Source: Myxococcales bacterium (GTDB taxonomy: Bacteria > Myxococcota_A > Polyangia > Haliangiales > SHYZ01). From it: a stretch of 38,653 nt of DNA. The stretch's first letter is position 1; every line of letters starts with the position of its first letter. The notes under the pieces were generated by a model. That model had not been told where the DNA came from. It saw nothing but the letters and a program-made list of their open reading frames with translations, and did not search any database. This document shows, piece by piece, positions 2 through 6,021 of this stretch. The translations under genes were made by a program, and so were the position numbers. The stretch spans positions 1-38,653 of the forward strand of contig SHYZ01000010.1 of assembly GCA_009692535.1 (NCBI GenBank), given 5' to 3'.

Positions 2-190
2 GATGCCGGCCCACCCGATCCCACGGGCGACGGCGGTCGTCGTGACGGCAGCGTTGTCGACGGCGGCGGCGGTGGTGGTCCCGGTCCCGGCTGCGGCTGC
101 GGCGTCAGTCTGCTCGCCGGGATCTTCGTGCCCTGGCTGCCGCTCGGACCGCGAAGGCCGCGAAGGCCGCGAAGGCCGCGCACGCGATAG
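2..190 (+). CDS. 3' end of a surface protein gene with a MYXO-CTERM-like tail (partial)
   Basis: Only the last 62 codons are inside the window; the gene enters from the left edge. The visible part is an Asp/Gly/Pro-rich linker with a run of six glycines, then a GCGCG cysteine motif, a hydrophobic stretch (LLAGIFVPWLPL) and an Arg-rich end with three RRP repeats before TAG at 188-190. Cys motif, membrane span and basic cluster in that order are the hallmark of MYXO-CTERM sorting tails, which anchor exported proteins in myxobacteria. The rest of the protein, and so its function, cannot be seen. Its 3' end overlaps the opposite-strand gene (105-1118) by 86 bp, and that gene also ends in a MYXO-CTERM-like tail. 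The call rests on composition and motif order only; an open frame without function is the alternative. Confidence 0.6.
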   Translation, partial: DAGPPDPTGDGGRRDGSVVDGGGGGGPGPGCGCGVSLLAGIFVPWLPLGPRRPRRPRRPRTR

Positions 191-5260: not shown

Positions 5261-5307
5261 GCAGTCAACGGGCACGCAGTAACACGGGCCCGCAGTAACA
5301 CGGGCCC
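5261..5307. promoter_or_regulatory. Tandem repeat with CGGGCCCG palindromes upstream of a TetR gene (possible operator)
   Basis: The 16-bp unit CGCAGTAACACGGGCC occurs twice head to tail at 5275-5290 and 5291-5306. A degenerate third copy (GCAGTCAACGGGCAC) precedes it at 5261-5275. Each full copy ends in the perfect palindrome CGGGCCCG (5284-5291 and 5300-5307). The repeats lie 31 bp before the TetR start and between divergent genes, where a TetR autoregulatory operator would be expected. Binding is inferred, not shown. Confidence 0.45.
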
Positions 5308-5337
5308 GCCGCGACCCCATGCTACCGTGCTGCCACC

Positions 5338-6021
5338 ATGGCCCGCGCCGCCGTCCCCTCGAAGTCTCGCGGGCGCGTCGCGCTGGTCGACGGACGCGTC
5401 CTCCGCGCCAGCCGGCTCCGCGTAGCGCGGCGCGAGCAAATCCTCCTCGCGGCGCGCCGGGTGTTCGCGCGGCGCGGCTTCCACGCCACGCGCGTCGCCG
5501 ACCTGCTCGACGCGACCGGCATCGCGCGCGGCACCTTCTACCTTTACTTCGACGGTAAGCGCGCCATCTTCGCGGCGCTCCTCGACGACGTCCTCGTGCG
5601 GCTGCGCGCGCCGATCCACGCCGTGGACGTTCGCCCCGGCGCAGTGCCGCCGCGCGTGCAGCTGCAGAACATGGTGCGCTCGATCCTCGGCGCCATCGTG
5701 GCCGACCGCGACCTCGCGTTCATTCTGCTGCGTGAGGCGCCGCACGCCGAGCCGGAGTGCGCCGCGCGCGTCGAGCAGTTCTATGCGGACATTCTCGCGA
5801 TGATCACCAGCGCACTCGCCCACGGGTGCGCGCTGGGGTTCCTGCGTGCCTGTGACCTCGCGACCACCGCCGCGTGCCTGCTCGGCAGCGTCAAGGAGGT
5901 GGTGGATCGGCGCATTCTCGCCGCGCCGGTTGCCTCGGGGCTCGACCTCGACGCGCTCACCGAGCAGCTGCTCGAGTTCAGTCTGACCGGACTATTGCAG
6001 TCTGCCTCCCTGCGGAGGTGA
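5338..6021 (+). CDS. TetR/AcrR family transcriptional regulator
   Basis: 227 residues. The N-terminal helix-turn-helix covers about residues 32-79: REQILLAARRVFARRGFHATRVADLLDATG, then IARGTFYLYFDGKRAIFAALL, the canonical TetR recognition helix with FYLYF. A basic 30-residue extension precedes it. The C-terminal ligand-binding half is all helical and carries no recognisable specificity. TetR proteins usually repress their own gene and neighbours, releasing DNA on ligand binding. Candidate targets are the divergent RHH/hydrolase pair or itself, because a tandem repeat with palindromes lies in the shared upstream region. ATG 5338 is used because the ORF has no better start before the HTH. A short CCTCC/GGAGG hairpin ends at the stop codon and a T-rich run follows at 6035. 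Confidence 0.92.
   Translation: MARAAVPSKSRGRVALVDGRVLRASRLRVARREQILLAARRVFARRGFHATRVADLLDATGIARGTFYLYFDGKRAIFAALLDDVLVRLRAPIHAVDVRPGAVPPRVQLQNMVRSILGAIVADRDLAFILLREAPHAEPECAARVEQFYADILAMITSALAHGCALGFLRACDLATTAACLLGSVKEVVDRRILAAPVASGLDLDALTEQLLEFSLTGLLQSASLRR

Follow-up and report, generated by a model that had tools for sequence, protein, structure and literature searches.

The window, 38,653 nucleotides from a Myxococcales draft genome (235 contigs, 80% complete), is contig C149 read from its first base, and it probably begins where two convergent surface-protein genes overlap at their 3' ends, the products of both carrying MYXO-CTERM-type tails. This reading builds on features that can be observed directly: the reading frames and their phase, the abutting membrane spans, the codon usage, and the homology of the minus-strand gene to MYXO-CTERM proteins. 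Its best support is that the arrangement recurs: it occurs independently at least twice elsewhere, in one case conserved between two species. On balance, we favor the view that, within this bacterial order, convergent MYXO-CTERM genes recurrently share tail DNA and that the window locus exemplifies this. Among these instances the window is the weaker and less certain case, and its phase differs from that of the clear cases, so that it represents a different solution.

Two gene ends on opposite strands

On the plus strand, a frame cut by the contig start is open from base 2 and ends with a TAG stop at 188-190; on the minus strand, a gene runs from 1118 to 105 and ends with TGA at 107-105. These stops bear out an earlier note on this DNA, which had proposed that the convergent genes overlap by 86 bp; the overlap lies near one end of the contig. 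The relevant features are as follows.

105-190, both strands: doubly coding shared stretch of 86 bp, phase 123:132
2-190, plus: 3' end of the plus gene, with a D/G/P-rich linker, Cys motif, short span, Arg-Pro cluster and TAG at 188-190
92-100, plus: Cys motif C-G-C of the plus tail, outside the overlap
104-148, plus: membrane span VSLLAGIFVPWLPLG of the plus tail, its antisense being the minus Arg cluster
149-187, plus: Arg cluster PRRPRRPRRPRTR of the plus tail, antisense to the minus membrane span
105-1118, minus: gene of 337 amino acids with a hydrophobic N-terminus, a predicted beta-sandwich body and a MYXO-CTERM-type tail
246-254, minus: Cys motif C-D-C of the minus tail, the second Cys being C291 (248-246)
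147-197, minus: membrane span LTTIACAAFAAFAAFAV of the minus tail, helix 306-332 in the structure model
108-146, minus: Arg cluster RAAARARRSRRAD of the minus tail, antisense to the plus membrane span
149-180, both strands: 9-bp tandem repeat CCGCGAAGG in 3.6 perfect copies, (PRR)n on plus and (AAF)n on minus

In phase 123:132, as found in the window, the first codon base of one frame lies opposite the first codon base of the other. The membrane spans of the two tails meet at 148/149, and each Arg cluster, together with each stop codon, is antisense to the span of the partner gene. The plus gene ends in the order DAGPPDPTGDGGRRDGSVVDGGGGGGPGPGCGCG, VSLLAGIFVPWLPLG, PRRPRRPRRPRTR and the minus gene in the order CDCRVGGRGARGGNAGAAG, LTTIACAAFAAFAAFAV, RAAARARRSRRAD; each frame encodes a C-x-C motif, then a hydrophobic segment, then an Arg cluster. 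All three elements had been claimed for both strands, and all three are present, except that the Cys motifs of both tails (92-100 on plus, 254-246 on minus) lie outside the overlap.

The same note had derived both tails from one 9-bp repeat. Its readings of the repeat, Arg/Pro on the plus strand and AAF on the minus strand, agree with the PRR and AAF units found here, and a gain or loss of 9 bp in CCGCGAAGG would indeed leave both frames intact. The idea that the repeat encodes both tails has to be given up: its contribution is limited to the plus Arg cluster and, within the minus membrane span, the second half, and the minus Arg cluster is antisense to the non-repetitive plus span (108-146). 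The 9-bp repeat is unique in the genome except for one site elsewhere with a single mismatch. Two further repetitive stretches were observed in the window. Positions 168-202 and 227-261 form an imperfect direct repeat (25 of 35 bases identical, spacing 59), the second copy of which contains the codons for the CDC motif of the minus gene; only 1 of 300 shuffles matched this duplication, yet 6 of 124 other window stretches did so, and we do not rely on it. A 16-bp tandem repeat, ACGGGCCCGCAGTAAC (2.6 copies with 96% matches), occupies 5268-5309; shortly after it, at 5338, begins a plus-strand frame that resembles a TetR-type regulator.

The predicted structure of the minus protein has a mean pLDDT of 68; a fold assignment by structure search was discarded, as it yielded generic beta-sandwich matches only (TM-scores near 0.2). 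In G001, the only other genome of the same family examined, the homologue of the minus gene shows 41% identity over most of its length, and its tail scores 21.8 bits on the MYXO-CTERM model, above the cut-off of 20. The homologue in G132 also passes (21.5 bits), and five more distant genomes contain homologues with Cys, span and Arg ends; a search of a second sequence collection returned one relative. C291 is invariant in seven homologues and forms one of 26 invariant columns. Judged by this comparison, the minus gene is real. Its own tail has the signature motif of MYXO-CTERM (TIGR03901), a CDC with the invariant Cys, and the expected span followed by an Arg-rich end (LTTIACAAFAAFAAFAV then RAAARARRSRRAD); the curated TIGR03901 model gave no match to it at E 10, and the tail thus stays short of the cut-off.

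The overlap itself is absent at the distance of G001. There, the homologue overlaps its convergent neighbor by 22 bp at the 3' ends (L004, G001:C25, 2355-2376), and this neighbor was identified from its sequence as recG. Homologues that keep only one of the two tails had been named beforehand as a warning sign, and G001 is such a case, since its tail is kept and faces recG.

Convergent tail pairs in related genomes

We examined the MYXO-CTERM matches listed for five related genomes (294 tails; for G006 and G009 to about E 0.8). Among the matches listed there are exactly three convergent pairs within 2.5 kb, and all three overlap: the model matches overlap by 16 bp, and both partners score above 20 bits in the genome search. 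Random placement would yield about 0.03 pairs at up to 60 bp and 1.4 at up to 2.5 kb, a rough yardstick, as genes are not randomly placed and the three pairs include two that are orthologous to each other. A pattern scan of 593 kb of loci (97 tail motifs, some loci repeated) revealed no further convergent tail pair.

The pair in G002 (L136, G002:C3, 1985-2024) is a 40-bp palindrome (36 of 40 positions) that encodes YALARRRRRARA and a stop on the plus strand and YALARRRRRASA and a stop on the minus strand. It joins a trypsin-family gene on the plus strand and a convergent frame of 1040 codons through nearly identical tails, with each TAG stop antisense to a Tyr codon of the other tail. In a whole-protein scan the plus tail scored 17.8 and the minus tail was not listed at E 0.01, so that the pair is borderline by model and plain by eye. 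The orthologous pairs each consist of convergent genes for a VWA protein and an SCE4755-family protein (L135, G004:C43, 2252-2471; L137, G006:C78, 1392-1476), located well inside their contigs. In the protein scan these four tails score between 20.0 and 25.2 bits, and the overlapping pair is conserved, with each of the two genes about 70% identical between G004 and G006. Past its Arg cluster, the VWA protein continues into sequence antisense to the partner's span and further, which gives whole-frame overlaps of 85 bp in G006 and 220 bp in G004.

All three pairs are in phase 123:213, unlike the 123:132 of the window. In phase 123:213, the antisense of N-CG is CG-N', so that a run of CGN Arg codons stands opposite a run of CGN Arg codons with a shared wobble base; such a run reads as Arg on both strands as a direct consequence of the genetic code. 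When folding was compared with that of shuffled sequences, the G002 palindrome, a strong hairpin, folded somewhat better (z about -2), and the window overlap showed no excess (z 0.2 to 0.4), nor did those of G004 and G006. A terminator or hairpin role for the window overlap was rejected on these grounds. The proposal that two sorting signals share DNA on opposite strands thus stands as far as sorting-type tails are concerned, and more clearly in the relatives than in the window; the repeat as the source of both does not.

Codon usage, tail quality and alternative readings

The Arg clusters of the window differ in their codons from those of other tails. Rare Arg codons (CGA, AGA, AGG) account for 12 of 14 in the window clusters versus 11 of 82 in the other tails of the genome (Fisher p 1.5e-7). 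Codons are rare in the plus cluster (z -3.1; 7 of 8 Arg codons rare in the last 14 codons) and in the minus cluster (z -5.0; 5 of 6 Arg codons rare), whereas both spans show ordinary usage (plus, z -0.8; minus, within 150-191, z 0.65). With ordinary codons in the spans and rare ones in the Arg clusters, the spans look primary and the Arg clusters derived, which would follow from each gene having lost its end and run on into its partner. The phase offers a route for such a derivation: in 123:132, codons with a middle T and a G/C wobble base (Leu, Val, Phe) feed antisense N(G/C)A codons, i.e., CGA, GCA, GGA, CCA, TCA and TGA, for Arg, Ala, Gly, Pro, Ser and stop. When 17 genuine tails of this genome were read in antisense, the residues opposite the spans were 31.5% Arg in phase 123:132 versus 17% in the other two phases, and a stop was present in 12 of the 17. 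When the ends of genuine tails were joined in silico in phase 123:132, one tail was acceptable in 8% of cases and both in 0.4%; in the other two phases, no join had both tails acceptable.

Both window tails are poor by the models. The plus tail has a CGC motif, the span VSLLAGIFVPWLPLG and the Arg-rich end PRRPRRPRRPRTR as in TIGR03901; its span is short and lacks the usual spacer after the Cys motif, and the curated model gave no match at E 10, leaving this tail, too, below the cut-off. Both tails, called MYXO-CTERM-like in the note, show the tripartite pattern, and neither reaches the curated model. With a local model built from 37 related tails, the minus tail obtained 1.8 bits and the plus tail was not reported, while genuine tails had a median of 34. 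Either the overlap has pushed both tails off the consensus with the essentials kept, or decay is under way in one or both. At least 11 tails of the genome lie above the cut-off of the MYXO-CTERM model. The genome also encodes a MrtX-like CPBP protease (L110, G000:C44:3091-3768) with E 3e-42 and 145.6 bits against a family cut-off of 180; in a genome rich in MYXO-CTERM tails, this protein is possibly a divergent myxosortase. In a different genome of the same order, the 1.6-Mb G005 (estimated 98% complete), only two MYXO-CTERM matches were present at E 1; among its relatives of 5 Mb or more, most have tens.

The overlap might be real and the tails be by-products of 3' read-through that have decayed, with proper sorting lost by one or both proteins and the Arg residues being simply the antisense of a span. 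We consider this rather unlikely, though it is the strongest of the competing explanations. It would account for the low model scores and for the 46 residues that follow the Cys in the minus tail (31 to 41 in six homologues), a length that fits a 3' extension; the antisense of a span is Arg-rich without selection, and 124 of 178 convergent overlaps longer than 60 bp have been ascribed to a 3' extension that arose through error or through loss of a stop (PMC2478687). It sits less well with the retention of all three tail parts on both strands and the stops soon after each Arg cluster, with the rarity of two acceptable tails among random joins, and with the clear, conserved tail pairs in relatives.

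A second explanation concerns the plus frame, which could be open merely by chance, in intergenic DNA that is GC-rich and repeat-like, with the minus gene alone being real. Only part of the plus gene is present, GC-rich DNA often contains long spurious frames, and the linker is Gly-rich and simple; a protein search with the gene end gave weak low-complexity matches only and no informative homologue. Synonymous usage in its 34 non-overlapping codons (z -1.55) lies between that of antisense controls (average -2.4) and real windows (0.1). We nevertheless judge a chance frame improbable. A codon model was trained on the linkers that precede the 37 genuine related tails, and all six frames were compared; in leave-one-out trials it chose the true frame in 35 of 37 cases with a median margin of 24 bits. 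For the non-overlapping linker and Cys motif, the plus frame obtained 21.6 bits and the next best frame 2.5, a preference of 19 bits that falls within the range of genuine linkers. Furthermore, a scan of 387 kb gave 3,279 stop-ended frames with 60 codons or more, 37 of which have the tripartite pattern; the pattern-matching frames other than the two of the window resemble genuine MYXO-CTERM tails ending long frames, and no clearly spurious frame has C-x-C, span and Arg cluster together. Both frames of the overlap can accordingly be regarded as coding, the minus frame by homology and the plus frame by the codon model outside the overlap.

An assembly error, in which the contig end falsely joins two unrelated tails or an indel creates the overlap, is very improbable: the overlap does occupy bases 105-190 from the contig end in a fragmented draft, but a random join rarely gives two in-frame Arg clusters with stops, no other contig of the genome shares the first 21 bases of the window, and the same arrangement lies inside contigs in G004 and G006.

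A proposed shared, disposable tail

Under the favored reading of overlapping MYXO-CTERM-type gene ends, both tails would act as sorting signals. The Cys motif would be lipidated, the span would keep the precursor anchored in the inner membrane, the Arg cluster lying on the inner side, and a myxosortase-like protease would remove the span and the Arg cluster. In Myxococcus xanthus, myxosortase removes the span and the Arg end after a Cys predicted to be lipidated (PMC11980579). Since these parts are removed, the region need only be hydrophobic and then basic, and known biology favors such tolerance; the shared part may tolerate coding on two strands because it is discarded. As to history, the original gene ends may have been lost by deletion or stop loss, after which the frame of each gene would have continued into sequence antisense to the partner's span, where GC-rich hydrophobic codons in phase 123:132 would then supply Arg residues as well as a stop.

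Long antisense overlaps in bacteria are frequently set aside as annotation errors, and a role can seldom be assigned to each part. In the window, the overlapping part of each strand has a known, simple and separately testable job. With the MYXO-CTERM/MrtX system (TIGR03901; PMC11980579), the window shares the Cys motif, span and Arg-rich end, the family of the minus gene and a tail-rich genome; it differs in that known tails have their own DNA, whereas the window tails share opposite strands and deviate from the consensus. Prokaryotic genes with long convergent overlaps (PMC2478687, PMC2174442) likewise overlap at their 3' ends, in phase 123:132 as in the window or 123:213 as in the relatives, but the overlapping parts there have no common function, while here the same functional element lies on both strands. 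Internal or extended MYXO-CTERM motifs such as that of MXAN_5598 (PMC11980579) resemble the G004 and G006 proteins in that the chain continues past the Arg cluster, in MXAN_5598 into a fused domain and in G004 and G006 into the antisense of a partner gene. The Rodin-Ohno sense-antisense hypothesis (PMC4082485) also lets the code link the chemistry of proteins from opposite strands; it concerns ancient enzymes with codon set against anticodon, in contrast to the short, present-day sorting tails in shifted phases described here. In a limited search of the open literature, we found no description of an antisense or convergent overlap of sorting tails.

For the myxobacteria at large, we see the case as evenly balanced that convergent MYXO-CTERM genes repeatedly share the DNA for both tails and keep it because the tail is discarded. 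Such sharing would be cheap, because a CGN Arg run mirrors itself in phase 123:213 and a span reads Arg-rich in phase 123:132. Overlapping sorting tails can escape standard models, as both window tails do, and dual tails of this kind would let the effect of the code, the phase and a disposable tail on the sharing of DNA be measured directly.
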